Notes under the pieces: model-generated | Told to the model about the DNA's origin: nothing | Seen by the model: the letters and a program-made list of their open reading frames with translations, nothing else | The model's database searches: none | Program-made: the position numbers and the translations under genes | Source of the DNA: a virus | Reading direction: 5' to 3' (one strand) | DNA: 39,564 bases | IMG/VR virus record: IMGVR_UViG_3300008259_000143 | Location: 1-39,564 of that record | In this document: in pieces, positions 22,757 to 37,220 of the stretch | Numbering within the stretch: position 1 is the first letter of the stretch | Layout: every line of letters starts with the position of its first letter

Positions 22757-22943
22757 TAGGTTGCCCTGCTAGTAGTTCTTCCTCTAATAGTGCACCTTGC
22801 ATGGTGAATAGCAAGCGTTCAAATGTCTTGCGGTGCATAAAGAAATGCGTGTTGCCTAGGAATACAGATGCGTGGTCAGGTTCAACCTCAACGTGTATCT
22901 CTTCGTATACGTCATTCTCTTTCTCAACTGTACTAATTACCAT
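22749..22943 (-). CDS. Small unknown protein
   Basis: A 64-residue protein with a beta-hairpin-like first half (EEIHVEVEPDHASVFLGNTH) and a helical second half (KTFERLLFTMQGALLEEELL). Similar short proteins with an 'xVxLGxxHFFMxRxTxExLL' pattern look like small partner-binding modules, but no family is recognised. It is coupled to the WhiB gene by a shared base. Confidence 0.62.
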   Translation of the reverse strand: MVISTVEKENDVYEEIHVEVEPDHASVFLGNTHFFMHRKTFERLLFTMQGALLEEELLAGQPND

Positions 22944-23230
22944 TACTTCTTAGTCCAATCATTCTCTGGTAGATTTAATCTAATGTTTAGTTTGTTGCGG
23001 ATAACACGTCTCTCATACGGTGTAGTGCCACCCCAGAAACCATACTTCTCGTGCTTAATAGCGTAGTCTGCACACTCAACCAAGATGTTACAGTTGGAAC
23101 AAAACTCTTTTAAGTCTGCTACCTCCTGCGCTGTGGTCTTGTTGTCATAGTCCTGATAGAACACATCCACACCCATGCGTGCACAGTTCTGTGTGCCGTC
23201 ATACTTGGGATACTTTATTTCATTCCTCAT
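22943..23230 (-). CDS. whiB: WhiB-like iron-sulphur transcription regulator
   Basis: A 95-residue protein with the four Cys of the Wbl family: C16 (QNCARMG), then C44, C47 and C53 in EFCSNCNILVECADYAI, spacing C-x27-C-x2-C-x5-C. The G-F-W-G-G turn is present in KYGFWGGTTPYERR, followed by a basic region (RVIRNKLNIR) that contacts DNA. Wbl proteins bind a [4Fe-4S] cluster and region 4 of the host primary sigma factor, and occur only in actinobacteria and their phages. It can reprogramme host transcription early in infection and fixes the host group. Confidence 0.92.
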   Translation of the reverse strand: MRNEIKYPKYDGTQNCARMGVDVFYQDYDNKTTAQEVADLKEFCSNCNILVECADYAIKHEKYGFWGGTTPYERRVIRNKLNIRLNLPENDWTKK

Positions 23231-26443: not shown

Positions 26444-26647
26444 CTATTCCTGTACCGCTAGGATTTCTTTAATCATTGTATCGGTTAGCCCGAACTTTTC
26501 CGCCAATTCCTCAACGGCAATTTCTGCCACCTTGTCGGGTAGTCCTGTCTGTCCAATCCAACGGGTCAATCCCTCAATTACGAAATCAATCTTTCGCATC
26601 TCTAGGATGTCACCTGTCATTGTGTGTATTCCTGAACTTGTATTCAT
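26444..26647 (-). CDS. First gene of the leftward block, unknown
   Basis: A 67-residue protein; start 26647 is chosen for GGAGA upstream. It begins MNTSSGIHTMTGDILEMRKI and is helical afterwards (TRWIGQTGLPDKVAEIAVEE, LAEKFGLTDTMIKEILAVQE). The last part has a helix-turn-helix-like pattern (AEKFGLTDTMIKEIL) that might bind DNA. As the first early gene it may be a regulator; evidence is weak. Confidence 0.6.
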   Translation of the reverse strand: MNTSSGIHTMTGDILEMRKIDFVIEGLTRWIGQTGLPDKVAEIAVEELAEKFGLTDTMIKEILAVQE

Positions 26648-26809
26648 TGTCTTGTCTCCGTTTCTGTCGGGGCTTATCCCTGACAAGAACAAGTAGACCA
26701 GAAAAGAAAAGGGGTCGCAACCACTTTGGCAAAAAAAGTTTGGATTCCCTTGCAGGACTAGGGAAAATAATTTCATAGGTTGGGCGTGTCGGGCGTGTCG
26801 TACCCCAAT

Positions 26810-26823
26810 GTTTCACGTGAAAC
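26810..26823. promoter_or_regulatory. parS site (ParB-binding centromere sequence)
   Basis: GTTTCACGTGAAAC is a perfect 14-base palindrome, identical to the parS consensus used by chromosomal ParB of actinobacteria such as Streptomyces and Mycobacterium. With flanks it reads TGTTTCACGTGAAACC. No ParA or ParB gene is recognisable in the genome, so the site would be read by host ParB. By chance such a 14-mer is expected about once in 270 million positions. Confidence 0.85.
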
Positions 26824-26868
26824 CGTGCGCCGAATTGGGAGTCCCCCCTATTTGTTCACCGTTTAAAT

Positions 26869-26921: not shown

Positions 26922-26957
26922 GTTGAACCTTCAACCAATTTAATTTAACATTCAACT
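26922..26957. promoter_or_regulatory. TTCAAC operator-like repeats
   Basis: GTTGAACCTTCAAC (26922-26935) is an inverted repeat with a two-base centre, and TTCAACT occurs again at 26951-26957, 21 bases (two helical turns) on. Repeats in this phase suggest a repressor or initiator protein bound on one face of the DNA. Confidence 0.45.
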
Positions 26958-26967
26958 ACCTATGACC

Positions 26968-26976
26968 TGTGGATAG
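26968..26976. promoter_or_regulatory. DnaA-box-like site
   Basis: TGTGGATAG, or CTATCCACA on the other strand, differs at one base from the standard TTATCCACA box and fits the looser actinobacterial form. A weaker ATTGGATAA lies at 27060-27068. AT-rich DNA follows (26990-27160), as expected beside an origin. Confidence 0.5.
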
Positions 26977-27098
26977 TGAATCTGTACCACCACTATGTAT
27001 AATGACTACAACCAAATATTTTTTCCAGTATTTACGTTATTGGTGCACAATTAAAACCCATTGGATAAAGGACTTTAAAAATAGTTTATAACAATTTG

Positions 27099-27113
27099 GT
27101 AACGAAACGTTAC
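27099..27113. promoter_or_regulatory. GTAACG palindrome, operator candidate
   Basis: GTAACG and CGTTAC are separated by AAA, 8 bases upstream of the promoter candidate at 27121. Related TTGTAACA sequences occur at 27121 and 27211. A regulator controlling the late promoter is a plausible reader. Confidence 0.45.
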
Positions 27114-27120
27114 AGTCACT

Positions 27121-27149
27121 TTGTAACAGGGTTAGTATATATGTAGGAT
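27121..27149 (+). promoter_or_regulatory. Candidate promoter of the rightward virion operon
   Basis: TTGTAA (27121-27126) and TAGGAT (27144-27149) are 17 bases apart; TAGGAT fits the actinobacterial TANNNT -10 form. Initiation near 27156 would place the four hairpins at the very 5' end of the transcript. The -35 match is only 4 of 6. Confidence 0.45.
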
Positions 27150-27162
27150 AAAATAATTACAC

Positions 27163-27263
27163 GTGTGCGCTTCAGCGCACGCTACTGGCGAGCCCTTGTT
27201 GGCTCGCCTATTGTAACAAAAGCAGCCCTTTGGGGGCTGCTAACGTGAGCGCCTTCGGCGCTC
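27163..27263 (+). ncRNA. Four consecutive GC-rich hairpins in the late-operon leader
   Basis: H1 is GTGTGCGC/GCGCACGC (27163-27182, loop TTCA, one wobble). H2 is GGCGAGCC/GGCTCGCC (27187-27208). H3 is AGCAGCCC/GGGCTGCT (27221-27241). H4 is GAGCGCC/GGCGCTC (27247-27263). Stems are perfect 7-8 pairs except for the H1 wobble, have unrelated sequences, and stand out from AT-rich surroundings. No hairpin is followed by a clear T-run. They may be a structured RNA acting on RNA polymerase, comparable in layout to the put RNAs of phage HK022. Confidence 0.6.
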
Positions 27264-27336
27264 TTATATAGGTTCTTTTTATATGTTTTTATTTAGACAT
27301 AATTTAGAGCCAATGCTTAAGACAGGATAACTTCAT

Positions 27337-29223
27337 ATGGCAGCCAAAGGTGGTGCAGAGCACCATAACGTTGTACGCCTTCGTGAAGACAAGGCTAAAG
27401 TCTTAGCCAGTGTAGAAACTGGCATTGAGGTCAGAGTAGCCATATCCATGGCTGGTCGTAAGCCCGATGTTCTAAAGAAGTGGCTCACAGACCCTGTGTT
27501 TGCCAAAGACCTAGAGATAGCCCGAACCAAGGGTTCAGACCTAATGAAGGTCACCCTAGGTAGCGACAAGGGCAAGAACATTGACTTCGCCACTTTCTCT
27601 AAAGAGTTCTTAGGTAACGAAGTATTCCCCCATCAGCAGGACTGGATTGACGTGCTGGAGGGAAGGGAGCCTACTTGGCTCCATCCAGCCATGTCCTATG
27701 AAAAGGGCAACAAGAATCGTATCTTAATTAATGTGCCGCCTGAGCACGCCAAATCCACAGTAATCACCGTAGGCTATAGCACCTACCGCATTGCCATGGA
27801 TTCTAACGTGCGTATCATTGTGGTGTCCAAGACTTTAAATAAAGCCCGTGAGTTCGTTTACTCCATTAAGCAGCGCCTATCCCATCCACGCTACGCTAAG
27901 TTACAGCAGGTCTATGGACCTTCTGGTGGTTGGAAAGAAGACTCAGATACCTGGAAGACCGACACAGTTTACCTAGGTCAAGAAGCCCGTGACTCATCCG
28001 AAAAGGACCCTACGCTTCAGGCGCTAGGTATTGGTGGTCAGATTTACGGTGCCCGTGCTGACCTGATTATCCTAGATGACGTTATCACTACTGCCAATGC
28101 CCACGAGTGGGAGAAGCAGTTAGAGTGGCTTCAGAAGGAAGTAATCACCCGTCTAGGTAAGAACGGTAAGTTACTTATCGTAGGCACCCGTATCGGGGCT
28201 GTAGATTTATACCGAGAACTTCGTAACCCAGAGCATTGGTCTGGTGGTGTTAGCCCGTTTACACGGCTTGCCATGCCAGCGGCTTTAGAGGTACACGATG
28301 ACCCAGATAAGTGGGTTACCCTCTGGGAGCGTTCAGACCGTCCATGGGACGGCGATGATGACGCTGTACCAGATGAGGATGGTTACTACCAGAAATGGGA
28401 TGGACCAGCACTCTTTGCAAGACGTAGCGAGGTAACTGCCTCAACATGGGCTTTAGTTTACCAGCAACAGGACATAGACGATGACGCAATTTTTAATCCA
28501 ACGGTTGTTAACGCCTGTGTTAATCGTATGCGTAAACCTGGTCCTCTCCGTATGGGAGCGGCTGGACATCCACGAGACGGACAATGGGTCACGCTAATTG
28601 GCATGGACCCTGCTATGGCAGGAAAGACTGCGTTCGTAGCCTATGCTGTAGACCGTCAGTCTGGTAAGCGTCTAGTCCTAGATGCCTACAATATGTCAGA
28701 CCCTACCCCTGGCAAGATTCGTGCCATCATTGAAGACTGGATTAACACCTACAAGCCAGTAGAACTGCGTATTGAAATCAACGCCCACCAGAAGATGTAC
28801 GAGGTGGACGAAGAGTTCCGCCAGTATCTGGCTAATAAGGGTGTTAGATTCTCTAGCCACTTCACTGGCAAGAACAAGTGGGACACCGACTTCGGTGTGG
28901 CTGCTATGCAAGGCTTGTTTGGTACCATGGGTGGTGCTAAGCACAACCGAGATAATCTCATTGAACTACCAGACCCTCAGTACCACGAGGGTATCAAGGC
29001 TCTAATCAATCAGTTGATTACTTGGAAGCCTGGAACTCGTAACCCTACAGACGTTGTTATGGCTCTGTGGTTCTGCGAGATTAAAGCCAAGGAAATGATT
29101 CAGCACTCTGGGAATCAAATCTGGCACGCAACAAGTCGTTTCGTTACTCAACGCCAGATGGCAAAGCAAGCGGTTGTCAATCTTGATGATTTGGCAATGG
29201 AACAACATACACTTTATCTTTAA
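27337..29223 (+). CDS. terL: Terminase large subunit
   Basis: A 628-residue packaging motor. The N-terminal 65 residues have a helix-turn-helix-like element (EVRVAISMAGRKPDVLKKWL) that may replace a separate small subunit, since none is seen upstream. The ATPase has a Walker A-like NVPPEHAKSTVIT (133-141) and Walker B DLIILDDV (242-248), followed by LLIVGTRIG. The nuclease domain starts near IGMDPAMAGKTAFVAYAVDR with its acidic residue, then PVELRIEINAHQKMYEVDEE. It cuts and pumps DNA through the portal encoded next. AGGA lies nine bases before ATG. Confidence 0.93.
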   Translation: MAAKGGAEHHNVVRLREDKAKVLASVETGIEVRVAISMAGRKPDVLKKWLTDPVFAKDLEIARTKGSDLMKVTLGSDKGKNIDFATFSKEFLGNEVFPHQQDWIDVLEGREPTWLHPAMSYEKGNKNRILINVPPEHAKSTVITVGYSTYRIAMDSNVRIIVVSKTLNKAREFVYSIKQRLSHPRYAKLQQVYGPSGGWKEDSDTWKTDTVYLGQEARDSSEKDPTLQALGIGGQIYGARADLIILDDVITTANAHEWEKQLEWLQKEVITRLGKNGKLLIVGTRIGAVDLYRELRNPEHWSGGVSPFTRLAMPAALEVHDDPDKWVTLWERSDRPWDGDDDAVPDEDGYYQKWDGPALFARRSEVTASTWALVYQQQDIDDDAIFNPTVVNACVNRMRKPGPLRMGAAGHPRDGQWVTLIGMDPAMAGKTAFVAYAVDRQSGKRLVLDAYNMSDPTPGKIRAIIEDWINTYKPVELRIEINAHQKMYEVDEEFRQYLANKGVRFSSHFTGKNKWDTDFGVAAMQGLFGTMGGAKHNRDNLIELPDPQYHEGIKALINQLITWKPGTRNPTDVVMALWFCEIKAKEMIQHSGNQIWHATSRFVTQRQMAKQAVVNLDDLAMEQHTLYL

Positions 29224-31536: not shown

Positions 31537-31974
31537 ATGGCAAGAGGCGGATATCGTAAGCCAGCCAATCCTGCTCCAGTATCGGGTCCAGGTAAACTTT
31601 CTCGCCGCACTGACGGCGGACCAACACAAGGCATGAAAGACATGGCAGCAAACGGAGTCTACGGTGAGCGTAAGGCTCTAGCCGAGATGCAGAGTTCAGC
31701 ACCTATGCAAGGAAACCCAACTCCTTCTATGCCATCACCACAAGTTTCTGCTGCTCCTGCAGCACCACAACCTATGACTGGATTGTTTGACCCAACTCAA
31801 CGACCAGAAGAACCAATTACTGCAGGTATGCCTTTTGGTGCTGGTAGCAACTACCCAACTGCAATGCCAGTTCAGATTGATGACACTGCGGCACAAATTC
31901 GTGCAGCCTATGCTTTATACCCTAATGAATCTCTTCGTGTACTTCTTAATGCCCTAGAGAACGAAGGTCGCTAG
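31537..31974 (+). CDS. Small Pro-rich structural protein
   Basis: A 145-residue protein. The N-terminus (MARGGYRKPANPAPVSGPGK, LSRRTDGGPTQG) is Gly/Pro/Arg-rich, the middle is Pro/Ala/Met-rich and probably disordered, and the end is helical with DDTAAQIRAAYALYPNESLR. Proteins with this 'RGGYRxPxNPAPVSGPGxLSRRTDGGP' start are frequent between portal and capsid genes of actinophages; role unknown, probably in the head. Its stop overlaps the GTG of the next gene. Confidence 0.75.
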   Translation: MARGGYRKPANPAPVSGPGKLSRRTDGGPTQGMKDMAANGVYGERKALAEMQSSAPMQGNPTPSMPSPQVSAAPAAPQPMTGLFDPTQRPEEPITAGMPFGAGSNYPTAMPVQIDDTAAQIRAAYALYPNESLRVLLNALENEGR

Positions 31975-34900
31975 TGGCTAAAAAGAAGAGTCTTTTTCAG
32001 CCGAAGGGAACTCTGTTCACCTACGAGGACTGGAAGCCAAGTGGTAACAATCCTTTTGAGACAAGACAATACTCTCAAGATGAATTAGTTAATGAGTACA
32101 AAAAGATTTACTCGCAGACTGACTTGCCAGTTATCTTGTCACGATACGCAGACAGTTTTCCTCAGAACCCAGACATTGCTCTAAGCCTTGCTAAGAGTGG
32201 GACATCTGGCGATGCAACAGGTGCAGCAGCACGTCTTCAGACAATCCTTAATGAGTCCATGGCTGATAAAGCATGGGAAGGTACTGGCGGTCAAGTTAAT
32301 AACATTGACTACAACGAATACCTAAAGGGTTTAAACAAAGACGAATCACGTACATTCTTGACACCTTTGTTTTCAGGCTACGAGGCTTCAACCAACGTCT
32401 TTCGTCAGATTGATGGTTACCTAAACAAAACCGAAGGCTCAGTTGATAACCCATCAAACATTGTAGTTGGTGGAGAAGATGCAAGTGACTTTACCCGTAT
32501 CTACAAGAACACCACTCTGTATCAAAATACAGTTGAAGGTTTAGGTATTGGTACTGGATTTATTCCAAGCGGTGAAGCATACCAAGCCAAGGAAGCATTA
32601 TCCTCACGTGTAGCACGTATTCGTTCAGCAAAGACTGGACAAGAATACTTTTACACCCCTGGTCGTGCTGCAGTTTCTGCACTAACAACTCTTGACCCAG
32701 AAGACCACCAATACAAAATCATCTCTGGAATTATTGACGGAGTTCTTGCCTTTAAAATTGACCCAAGCGTCATTGGTGGTAAAGCAGCAGCATTCCGTAG
32801 TGCAGCAAAAGCAACTGAAAATCTACGTGGAGTAACAAGTGCCGCTGGCACTGCAAAAGCAACTGCAGATGTAGCAGAAGAAATTGCAACTTACCGTGCC
32901 AACCTTCCAAGCCGTGAGGCTCTTGAGGCTTTAGAGAATCAAAAGGTTGCAGCAGCAGAACTTGATGAAGTCTATGCAAAAATTGCAGAACAAAGAAACG
33001 TTCTTAATGATGCAATCACACAGGGAGCCGTTGCAGAACAGCCTAAGGCTGTGCAAGCCGCTATCGCACGTTCTGGTTTAACACAGTTAAACGAAACTAA
33101 AACATCGTTACTGCAAAAGATTGAAGACCAGAAGGTACTTGCTACTGGTGTAGTCCTTGACCCTGCGACTGGAACTCCAATGTCTAAGGCAGATTCACTT
33201 AAGTATCTTAAGCAGGAAATCAAGTCTGTTGATGACCAAATCAATACTGCACTTGACGGTATCTACATTACAAGATTCAAAAAAGTTCGTGATACTTTAG
33301 AACTTAAGAAGTCTGCACTACAACAGGCAACAGACAGTCTTGCACAGAAGTACAAAGAAGTTCAGGAGATTGGTACTCCAGAAGCAAAGCAACGCTTCAT
33401 CATGGAAGAACGTGCTGGTTTACTTCAGGCTTCCGATGGCTATAAAGTAAATAAAGAAAAAGCCATTGAGTGGATTTTTGGAAAGAACGCAGACATTGTT
33501 CTTGAGCGTATTGCTGAGACTGAATCTGCTGCACAAATCATGCGTCTGTCAAAGAATAACTTTGACGCAGACCTTGCAAAAGAACTTGCTGCAGCAAAGA
33601 CTGTAGATGATGTTGAAGTATTGTTACTTGGTCGCATTGGCGTAGATGTTAACACATCAATGCCACGTACAGCCATTGGTCGCTACGTAGTAAATTCTAA
33701 TCCTAACTTCATTATGAAGCCGAAGTCTTCAGTAGAGAACCTAACAAAGTTTGGTCAGGCTCTAAAGTTCCTTGGAACTAGAATGCCAACACAAACAAGT
33801 ATTAAACTTGATGACACCAATGCACTTGTTGAAGAAGTTCGCAGGTGGATGATTGCTGCTCGTTACAATGTTGATGATATTGACAAGGTCATAGACGAAA
33901 TTATTGACATAGATGAACTTGACTTTGTAAATCGTCAAAGTGTAATTACTAAGATGCTTGACGATACAGTTGATGTTTACGCTGAAAAGCAAAAAATCAG
34001 TCCAAAGATTAAAGACAAATTAATGGACTTCACAACAGCCTACAGAACTGCTTCAAGTGGTGCCAAGGAATACACATCCGCAGCAATAGGTGATAAAGTA
34101 GGAAACAAAATAATTGTTGATGGTCAAAAATTTGATTTAACTGATAAGCCAACTTCAATTACTCAACTTGCTACCGAAATTTCTTTGCCGAATGTCTATG
34201 CAGTTCGTGAACTAACTGGAATCATGGCACGTGCAACACGTTCTATTGACAATGTTATCGCTAAAGATTCAAGAATGACAGAGCGTGCTACATTTGCTGC
34301 TACTAGATTTACTCGCAGTGCAACTGATGGTTTCTTACGTAGCATTCTTCTTGTTGGTCGTATATCTTATGAGATACGTAACATCGCAGAAATGCAAACA
34401 CGTATGTTTCTTGCAGGTGGTATAGGACTTTTCACTAACCCTGTTAAGTTTACTGCACTTATCATGTCAAACCCAGAATCTGCTAAGGCAATCGTTCGCA
34501 AGGCTGCAGCCAAAGACCCATACATAGTAGACATCAACGGTAAAGCCTTTATGGGTGCAGACAGTTTTGTTGCAGATGATACTCAAGCGATGCACGATTC
34601 CTTTGCTAACACAATGGCATCACGTGGACATTCCCTTGAAGGACAAAACCTAAGTGGTGCATGGCGCAGTGGTGAGTATGACTCAATTAAACTAGAGATT
34701 TCAAAAAATGGTAGCCCTAGAAATGCTAAAGAGTACGCAGAAGCCGTAGCATCACGCTTACTACAGCACCATGCTGACCCAATCAAGAGAGCAGTAGCCA
34801 CAAATGACATGCGTGCGCTACCAAAGGGACTAGCCAGTGCAGTAAAAGAAGGTCGCATGACCTATGAAGAAGCATTGATTCAGGCTATTCGTGACGGTGC

Positions 34901-37220
34901 ATTCAAGAGACAAATTGATATCCTTGGAAACGCAGAACCACAACTGCAAAAACTATTTTCTATGGACAATGGTATCCGAACTATGTTGTTTGGAAACACA
35001 TCACGTTCGTATGCCCGTGAAATAGCAGATGAAACGCTAGGCATGACAGAACTACGTGAGTTCATAACAACTGGCAAGATTGTTGAAAGAAAAGAAATTC
35101 TTGTAGATGGTGTACCTACCATCAAGGAACGTGTTGTCTTTGAAATGGGTAATTCATACAGGGACAATCACCGTGCACTTAGTAACATAATTAAAGACCA
35201 GTTACTTGTTGACGATGTAGCAAAAACAAACGCATCTAATCTGTTTATGCCACATCAAAAGTCTATTGAGTTAACAGATGTGAAGGGAAAGTACAATCAA
35301 TTCGCTGATTGGTTCTTCCGTCAGGCAGCACGTGCCGAAGTTCGCACAGTTTATGGTCCAGAATACCGCATTGCATACTGGGAAGCCGTTTCTGAAATGG
35401 CTCCAATCATGTCAAGAGAAGCAGCACAAAAAGTATTAAAGAATGCTGAAGATATTAAGCGCACTAGAGTTGCCACAGAGGGCGAAGATGGTGTTATTGT
35501 CTATCAGTCCTGGACTGAACTAAACCCTGCCTTTGATGATATTGTTCAAGCATCTAAAGATGGTGTTGGTAGACTAACAGTTAAAGATGTTGATGCCTAT
35601 GCACGAGATAAGGCTGCTAAGAGGATTGCATCTTTATTCTATGATGCAACTCAAAAGAACAACCTTACCTATGCAGCACAACTAGTTCTTCCATTCGTTA
35701 ATGCTTGGGCTAACACTATCCGCAAGTGGTCAGAACTAGGAACAAATCCTAGCCGTCTTGCCACCCGTGTTTTCCCTGCAACTAGGCTATATCAGAACCT
35801 ATTAAGCGAAGAAACTTCTGCAATATACGACTTTACTGGTACACCACATGACCCAATGCAGGGATTTGTTTGGAATAACCAGTATGGAGACAAGGTATTT
35901 ACCCTACCTTTGAGTGGATACTTACGTACATTGTTTGGTTTGCGTGGCAATCCAGAAACAGCAGACGTTGCCATACCGCTTAAGTCTTTAAACCTTGCGT
36001 TCTCTGGTGCTGAACTTGCAGATAGTGACCTAGGTATTCTTCCAGGGTTTGGAACTGTATGGAACATTGCCTATGGTTCCCTTGACAATGAGATTCAGAA
36101 CAAGACACCTGACGTACTTGCCAACATGATTGCACCATACGGTACTTCAGAAGGTAAGTACATTGGCTTTCTGCCAGCATGGATTCAAAAGATTGCTGCT
36201 GCCATAGTTGAAGATGAGAAGGCTTACGGTAAAACTGCTAAGCCAATCATGGCTTGGGAAGCAACAACTAACCCTAAGTACAAGGTTCTATACGATGGAA
36301 CACCTTTAACCCCTGAAGACCGTGCAGTATTACAGGCTGACCTGGCTGCATATGGATTAAGTCGTGCACGTTTTGCATACTTAATGCAGGGATTACTACA
36401 GAACGTACTACCAGGTACACCGTTGTATGAGTACTATGCACAGAATGAAAACGGCGATACGTTCCTACAGTGGCAAATGGCTGATTCATTTAACAAAATT
36501 GTCCAGCAACATGATGGAAACTTTGAAACAGCCTGGGCTGAGTACACTGCAGTATGGGGACGCAATGCAGTTCTTATCGGATTCAGTGATAACAAGAACC
36601 AAGTCTTTGCAAATGATGAGGCTTGGAACTTTGGAAAGAACAACCCATCACTGTTTAGTTCCTATGGAGATGTAATTCCTTACTTCTTTACTGGTGGAGA
36701 TTTCTCCTCAGAGTACCGTAAGGCTATGGAACGCCGTGGCAAGGGTGACCGTCTAACTGCAGAAGAAGTATTAAAGGAAGCAGACCGTCTATCCATGTCA
36801 GCAATGCGTGGTCAGTTGGCTATTGAAGCCGTATACGGTGGCTTTGATGCTAACTGGATTGATGACCAGATGAAGGCTTACAAGTCTGATGTCTTACAGG
36901 GATACGAACCAGAAGTAACAATCAATATTGGTGCTCGTGACCAGAAGATTATGCGAATTGAGTCTGCCCTAAAGAAGCCAGAGTTTGCTAATACTGATGC
37001 TGGTCAGGCTGCATTACTTTACTTTGCAGAACGTGACAGATGGCTAGAACAGTCTAGGTTGTACTACCCAGACCGTGATAAGCCGTCACTATCTGGTCAA
37101 GATAATGCTGAGGCACGTTACCGTTTACGAGTAATGGCAGAGCAATTAAGCGCAAACAATGATGATTTTAAAAATATGTTTATTCGTGTTCTTGCACAAG
37201 AACTCAAGGAAGAGGATTAA
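31974..37220 (+). CDS. Very large internal virion (ejection-type) protein
   Basis: A 1748-residue protein starting at GTG, the largest in the genome. It is mostly helical with long charged coiled-coil stretches (about 300-345 and 370-470, for example EALENQKVAAAELDEVYAKI). A weakly hydrophobic part lies around 780-830 (TRSATDGFLRSILLVGRISY and GGIGLFTNPVKFTALIM). There is no lysozyme or transglycosylase motif that I can see. Size and place beside two other helical proteins fit internal core proteins that are ejected to carry DNA through the envelope. A tape measure is an alternative. Confidence 0.65.
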   Translation: MAKKKSLFQPKGTLFTYEDWKPSGNNPFETRQYSQDELVNEYKKIYSQTDLPVILSRYADSFPQNPDIALSLAKSGTSGDATGAAARLQTILNESMADKAWEGTGGQVNNIDYNEYLKGLNKDESRTFLTPLFSGYEASTNVFRQIDGYLNKTEGSVDNPSNIVVGGEDASDFTRIYKNTTLYQNTVEGLGIGTGFIPSGEAYQAKEALSSRVARIRSAKTGQEYFYTPGRAAVSALTTLDPEDHQYKIISGIIDGVLAFKIDPSVIGGKAAAFRSAAKATENLRGVTSAAGTAKATADVAEEIATYRANLPSREALEALENQKVAAAELDEVYAKIAEQRNVLNDAITQGAVAEQPKAVQAAIARSGLTQLNETKTSLLQKIEDQKVLATGVVLDPATGTPMSKADSLKYLKQEIKSVDDQINTALDGIYITRFKKVRDTLELKKSALQQATDSLAQKYKEVQEIGTPEAKQRFIMEERAGLLQASDGYKVNKEKAIEWIFGKNADIVLERIAETESAAQIMRLSKNNFDADLAKELAAAKTVDDVEVLLLGRIGVDVNTSMPRTAIGRYVVNSNPNFIMKPKSSVENLTKFGQALKFLGTRMPTQTSIKLDDTNALVEEVRRWMIAARYNVDDIDKVIDEIIDIDELDFVNRQSVITKMLDDTVDVYAEKQKISPKIKDKLMDFTTAYRTASSGAKEYTSAAIGDKVGNKIIVDGQKFDLTDKPTSITQLATEISLPNVYAVRELTGIMARATRSIDNVIAKDSRMTERATFAATRFTRSATDGFLRSILLVGRISYEIRNIAEMQTRMFLAGGIGLFTNPVKFTALIMSNPESAKAIVRKAAAKDPYIVDINGKAFMGADSFVADDTQAMHDSFANTMASRGHSLEGQNLSGAWRSGEYDSIKLEISKNGSPRNAKEYAEAVASRLLQHHADPIKRAVATNDMRALPKGLASAVKEGRMTYEEALIQAIRDGAFKRQIDILGNAEPQLQKLFSMDNGIRTMLFGNTSRSYAREIADETLGMTELREFITTGKIVERKEILVDGVPTIKERVVFEMGNSYRDNHRALSNIIKDQLLVDDVAKTNASNLFMPHQKSIELTDVKGKYNQFADWFFRQAARAEVRTVYGPEYRIAYWEAVSEMAPIMSREAAQKVLKNAEDIKRTRVATEGEDGVIVYQSWTELNPAFDDIVQASKDGVGRLTVKDVDAYARDKAAKRIASLFYDATQKNNLTYAAQLVLPFVNAWANTIRKWSELGTNPSRLATRVFPATRLYQNLLSEETSAIYDFTGTPHDPMQGFVWNNQYGDKVFTLPLSGYLRTLFGLRGNPETADVAIPLKSLNLAFSGAELADSDLGILPGFGTVWNIAYGSLDNEIQNKTPDVLANMIAPYGTSEGKYIGFLPAWIQKIAAAIVEDEKAYGKTAKPIMAWEATTNPKYKVLYDGTPLTPEDRAVLQADLAAYGLSRARFAYLMQGLLQNVLPGTPLYEYYAQNENGDTFLQWQMADSFNKIVQQHDGNFETAWAEYTAVWGRNAVLIGFSDNKNQVFANDEAWNFGKNNPSLFSSYGDVIPYFFTGGDFSSEYRKAMERRGKGDRLTAEEVLKEADRLSMSAMRGQLAIEAVYGGFDANWIDDQMKAYKSDVLQGYEPEVTINIGARDQKIMRIESALKKPEFANTDAGQAALLYFAERDRWLEQSRLYYPDRDKPSLSGQDNAEARYRLRVMAEQLSANNDDFKNMFIRVLAQELKEED

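Follow-up and report, generated by a model that had tools for sequence, protein, structure and literature searches.

Does a phage that encodes neither ParA nor ParB draw on the chromosome segregation machinery of its host? The question is raised by a perfect parS palindrome in the window, i.e., the whole stretch of 39,564 nucleotides of viral DNA analysed here. An earlier note had described this palindrome as an actinobacterial parS site in the main non-coding region of the phage and had proposed that host ParB is recruited to it. The site and the genes that frame the question are as follows:

22943 to 23230, minus strand: WhiB-like protein, a marker of actinobacterial hosts (PF02467, 1.2e-11)
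26444 to 26650, minus strand: first gene of the leftward block, 68 aa, without a family match in Pfam or PHROG, start codon at 26650
26810 to 26823, no strand assigned: perfect 14-bp parS palindrome GTTTCACGTGAAAC, exact and equal to host parS
27337 to 29223, plus strand: terminase large subunit, TerL (phrog_38, 5.6e-59)

The palindrome is indeed non-coding, lying between the start codon of the leftward first gene (26650), from which it is 160 bp upstream, and the terminase (27337). It is found as a single exact copy in the whole window record, while the same 14 letters reversed, used as a control, occur 0 times. With 14 bp it lies within the 14–16 bp of host-type parS palindromes and is equal to host sites. 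The expectation for the exact 14-mer in a genome like that of the window is 1.1e-4 to 2.2e-4 (Markov orders 0–3), in agreement with the chance of 1 in 7,000 given earlier. A chance match was rejected on the basis of this expectation (~2e-4), of recurrence in relatives and of control palindromes.

The first 114 bases of the window are repeated at its end as a terminal direct repeat, which makes the contig circular, with ~39,450 unique bp and a G+C content of 45.4%. The genome is probably complete; hence, a missing ParB is not an artefact of a fragmentary record. Pfam and PHROG searches identified TerL, portal and major head proteins, an HslV-like protease, a sigma-like factor, a metallophosphoesterase, primase, RusA, a DnaB-like helicase, an exonuclease, WhiB and an ArdA-like protein. 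A protein of 1748 aa, encoded at 31974–37220, takes up 13% of the genome. In a profile search, no window protein matched the ParB_N domain at E<=10, and ParA, ParB and integrase are missing among the Pfam and PHROG matches of the scanned proteins (PHROG matches of 37 small proteins being the best 25 of 33 families). Within these matches, the earlier statement that the phage has no ParA or ParB of its own holds.

The window TerL is 53% identical to that of E7 and F5, lytic phages isolated on Ca. Planktophila LanE-43 (PMC10202952). Because of this relationship, and with the WhiB-like protein as a further indication, the host is likely a member of the Nanopelagicales (acI, freshwater actinobacteria). 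Ten acI-type genomes were searched for parS. Two parS-like sites each are present in eight of them (LanE-43, five other complete genomes and two drafts), and there is no match in the other two, which are small drafts of ~0.6 and 0.9 Mb. Six of the eight genomes with sites contain the exact phage 14-mer together with GATTCACGTGAAAC, and two contain one-mismatch sites only; the phage 14-mer is, thus, the commoner parS form among these genomes. In LanE-43, the one genome examined in detail, the main two sites are located at the starts of rsmG and parA, which is the classical arrangement, and a third near-match, GTTTCAGGTGAAAC, lies elsewhere on the chromosome. Each of the six complete acI genomes encodes exactly one ParB_N gene, with its two parS-like sites upstream of that gene, and an SMC protein, so that a cognate ParB would be at hand in a host assigned, as here, from phage relatives and WhiB. 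The claimed identity with actinobacterial chromosomal parS is, therefore, borne out letter for letter in the likely hosts, which encode ParB. Sporulation is not known from acI actinobacteria. A transfer of the host parS locus as an exact tract was considered and rejected, given that the host flanks examined do not evidently resemble those of the phage site.

Among 30 close relatives with upstream sequence available, three (L003, L039 and L030) have an exact copy of the 14-mer, located in the intergenic slot where the window has it. A search of 27 related records gave one site in each of these three and none in the other 24. Even with two mismatches allowed, parS is absent from the Beephvirinae and from the isolates E7 and F5. 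In the TerL tree, the window, L039 and L003 belong to one clade together with the parS-less L045, and L030 belongs to another together with the parS-less L029; L030 holds the 16-mer TGTTTCACGTGAAACA, and its flanks can be aligned with the others over a few bases only. Over 26941–27336, L045 and the window share 96% identity, yet other palindromes replace parS in L045. The earlier note had named absence from close relatives with conserved flanks as grounds against its reading, and this holds in part, most close relatives, L045 among them, lacking the site, but the site is nevertheless present in two clades. Since it occurs in only three of 30 relatives and in two clades, parS is an accessory element of this family that was probably gained more than once; its presence in separate clades argues for gain and loss rather than for chance, the simplest history on the tree being two gains and one loss. 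Furthermore, because most close relatives and the lytic E7 and F5 lack parS, the site is not needed for infection.

The neighbourhood of parS contains further elements:

26804 to 26839, no strand assigned: inverted repeat CCCAAT...ATTGGG, read directly from the sequence, enclosing parS and GTGCGCC (26825–26831)
26837 to 26845, plus strand: GGGAGTCCC, the window version of the family motif GGGGGAGACTGTCC and putative packaging terminus, resembling GGGGGGAGTG/AGTCCC (the slash marking the boundary)
26922 to 26935, no strand assigned: palindrome GTTGAACCTTCAAC, recurring in the same region of relatives
26968 to 26976, minus strand: DnaA box with one mismatch, CTATCCACA; the boxes of most relatives at this place are exact
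27165 to 27263, plus strand: row of four G+C-rich hairpins within the leader of the terminase gene, conserved across the family

Parts of this arrangement do not depend on parS. Similar arms and GTGCGCC are retained in parS-less relatives, e.g., as CCCAAGTTGTGCGCCCAGTTGGG, the parS-bearing form being CCCAATGTTTCACGTGAAACCGTGCGCCGAATTGGG. The family motif GGGGGAGACTGTCC resembles the terminal-repeat boundary of the Streptomyces Beephvirinae phages WRightOn and Immanuel3, which lies ~400 bp before terL; if the two are homologous, parS would be situated ~15 bp from the packaging terminus. Two other candidates for a terminus were rejected: a cos-type end near GTGCGCC, given that the related WRightOn and Immanuel3 have terminal repeats of 264 and 275 bp, and the contig end of L036, which is an assembly break, the two ends of that contig sharing a 22-bp overlap. 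No promoter was recognised near parS. The hairpins of the terminase leader show paired changes across the family (GAGCGCC..GGCGCTC versus GTGCCCC..GGGGCAC), and Rfam gave no match, these hairpins included.

To the right of the parS region, exact DnaA boxes are present in 22 of 27 parS-less relatives versus none of four parS-bearing phages (Fisher p ~0.005, entered as 21/26 and uncorrected for relatedness and near-duplicates). The boxes, TTATCCACA or TTATCAACA, form clusters of one to five exact copies ~1 kb or less upstream of terL, as seen in L005, L007, L013, L014, L016, L018, L020, L022 and others, with few copies elsewhere in those loci. Such a cluster is a probable origin or DnaA docking site, and the region as a whole gives the impression of a place where replication and segregation proteins of the host dock. 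Other palindromes, GTTGCGTATTACGCAAC, TAGAACATTTGTTCTA and CCCGTTTAAACGGG, are found in the parS region of L045, L007, L016 and L021; TAGAACATTTGTTCTA is LexA-box-like (GAAC-N4-GTTC), and the palindromes of L045 lie 576 and 552 bp upstream of terL.

The occurrence of parS is not confined to this family. In IMG/VR, the 16-mer parS is found in at least 120 stretches versus 4 and 1 for two palindromes of equal composition. By a crude gene prediction, 47–49% of the parS copies in viral contigs fall outside the predicted genes versus 12–13% of random positions. A ParB_N match is missing in 38 of 44 parS-bearing viral records of at least 25 kb, some of which are possibly fragments or misassigned. 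Among cultured phages, a parS-centred 30-mer matches 384 records, many of them near-duplicates, 238 at an identity of at least 99%; the control palindromes match 1 record and 43 records, the 43 all imperfectly. Sixteen cultured parS phages were examined, representing Salasmaviridae, Otagovirus, Orchidvirus, Woesvirus, Korravirus, Quhwahvirus, Pecentumvirus, Harbinvirus, Kenyattavirus, Gillianvirus and unclassified phages. All 16 have parS-like sites, up to six of them perfect, with 0 matches to the reversed control, and 14 lack a ParB_N match. Arthrobacter phage VroomVroom (OQ938592.1), without a ParB_N match, has six perfect parS sites from 4447 to 42679, dispersed over 43 kb. Phages of ParB-less enterobacteria are not represented among the ten commonest matched names and, in 60 evenly sampled rows, only by one Cronobacter phage.

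Pseudomonas phage phiPsa397 (MT670422.1) has one-mismatch parS sites at both ends (389–402 and 98815–98828), the left one inside an annotated terminal repeat_region, and the Gordonia phages Orchid and Hail2Pitt have perfect parS within 3 kb of the genome end. Sequences resembling parS are also seen in Microviridae and related small ssDNA phages (e.g., PQ006097.1, MG945609.1), in some cases inside replication initiator or capsid genes.

What, then, might the site do in the window phage? From the identity of the site, the presence of host ParB and the missing phage ParB, recruitment of host ParB is the simplest interpretation, and binding of ParB to the site in the infected cell appears likely. 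After injection, host ParB would load on the phage parS as a CTP clamp and slide from there onto neighbouring phage DNA, whereby the phage genome would become a client of the host segregation machinery, namely of ParA and possibly SMC, both host-encoded. The benefit may be that the infecting genome is positioned or retained in a small, slow-growing host cell, as phi29 uses Spo0J in Bacillus. We infer loading, spreading, host and benefit alike; taken together, we hold it somewhat probable that the palindrome functions like a parS of the host and serves host ParB as a loading point on the phage DNA, with positioning or retention as the likeliest benefit. This benefit is itself put down as the main one tentatively. 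As a first guess, we rank it before a ParB decoy, with control of early transcription or packaging third; it is put first because Spo0J brings the phi29 genome into spores. A single parS site gives limited ParB loading, which counts against this preferred reading, and the excess of the motif among other phages says nothing of the role that the site has in the window phage.

An unlikely alternative, the strongest of three, is that parS serves as a decoy: replicating phage genomes would quickly outnumber the two host sites and pull ParB away from the origin of the host, disturbing host segregation and division to the advantage of the phage. With no more than two parS-like sites around parAB in the hosts (the third near-match of LanE-43 lying elsewhere), a modest phage copy number would suffice. 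The exact DnaA-box clusters in the same region of sister phages, as another possible sponge for a host protein, and the six perfect sites of VroomVroom agree with such a role. However, ParB clamps recycle and are many per cell, so that a single site on each genome may be too little to deplete ParB, and the window phage has no parS array.

Less probable again is a regulatory or packaging element, in which ParB at the site would control the leftward early promoter or the adjoining terminase cut and not the position of the DNA. This would fit a site 160 bp upstream of the first early gene and ~15 bp from the family motif, which is similar to the terminal-repeat boundary in the related Streptomyces phages, as well as the sites at both ends of phiPsa397, one within the terminal repeat_region. 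Against these points, no promoter was recognised, the terminus is deduced from a short G-rich motif, and the neighbouring elements do not need parS because parS-less relatives keep them. Least probable of all is that another DNA-binding protein, of phage or host, has an operator equal to parS, or that the sequence is due to chance or hitch-hiking: the different palindromes CCCGTTTAAACGGG, GTTGCGTATTACGCAAC and TAGAACATTTGTTCTA in the same region of relatives are what the operators of several regulators would look like, but the exact identity with host parS, the expectation of ~2e-4, the recurrence in two clades and the huge excess of the 14–16-mer in other phages over palindromes of the same composition speak against it.

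Beyond the preferred reading of host ParB recruitment in the window phage, the broad pattern across cultured phages is a more interesting result than the window site itself. The earlier note regarded an orphan parS as falling outside the standard traits of phages, a view that does not stand, considering the 384 cultured-phage records versus 1 and 43 for the controls and the precedent of phi29. In a body of literature largely without subscription journals and without preprints, we found no general description of orphan parS or of host ParB use in phages. It is conceivable, if short of probable, that orphan parS is a widespread, hardly described phage element by which many unrelated phages, mostly of non-sporulating hosts, take over the segregation, and perhaps the SMC, machinery of their hosts, and that the freshwater family gains and loses the site, alongside DnaA boxes, in one docking region for host proteins. 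If phages broadly borrow the bacterial centromere, ParB, and via it ParA and SMC, would commonly take part in phage infection as a host factor, far outside the case of phi29 and spores. The question is directly testable on easily grown parS-bearing phages, such as Arthrobacter VroomVroom with its six sites, Gordonia Orchid and Microbacterium OneinaGillian, and the parS-positive and parS-negative sister phages of the freshwater family constitute natural controls.

Several known systems invite comparison. In P1 and extrachromosomal mycobacteriophage prophages, a parS-type site is likewise present on the phage genome; these P1-type phage/plasmid prophages, however, encode their own ParA and ParB, whereas the window has neither among the Pfam and PHROG matches listed and, thus, no phage-encoded ParABS by that measure. 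SGI1, described in PMC10954446 as hijacking the parABS of IncC plasmids, resembles the window case as a mobile element exploiting the ParABS of another replicon, but there an integrative element and a plasmid are involved instead of a phage and a chromosome. The chromosomal parS of the Nanopelagicales, at the starts of rsmG and parA, shares the 14-mer with the window, whose copy differs in being intergenic, with no parAB adjoining and with no evident relation of the flanks compared.

Closest is phi29, whose genome is carried into spores by host Spo0J (ParB) (Meijer 2005 as cited in PMC9437464). phi29 is a virulent phage that lacks a ParB of its own and uses the chromosomal ParB of the host; the window phage likewise has parS without ParB_N and without an integrase among the matches listed, and related isolates are lytic. 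PZA, a relative of phi29, has no ParB_N match and three parS sites, each with one mismatch and at least two of them within late genes; the window, in contrast, has one perfect intergenic site. Moreover, the phi29 type goes with a sporulating host and early promoters under Spo0A control, and phi29 is cited as using Spo0J for spore entry, whereas acI hosts are not known as spore-formers. Relative to phi29, what appears to be new is a single, perfect site in phages whose host is not a known spore-former, together with the gain and loss of the site that sister phages display.
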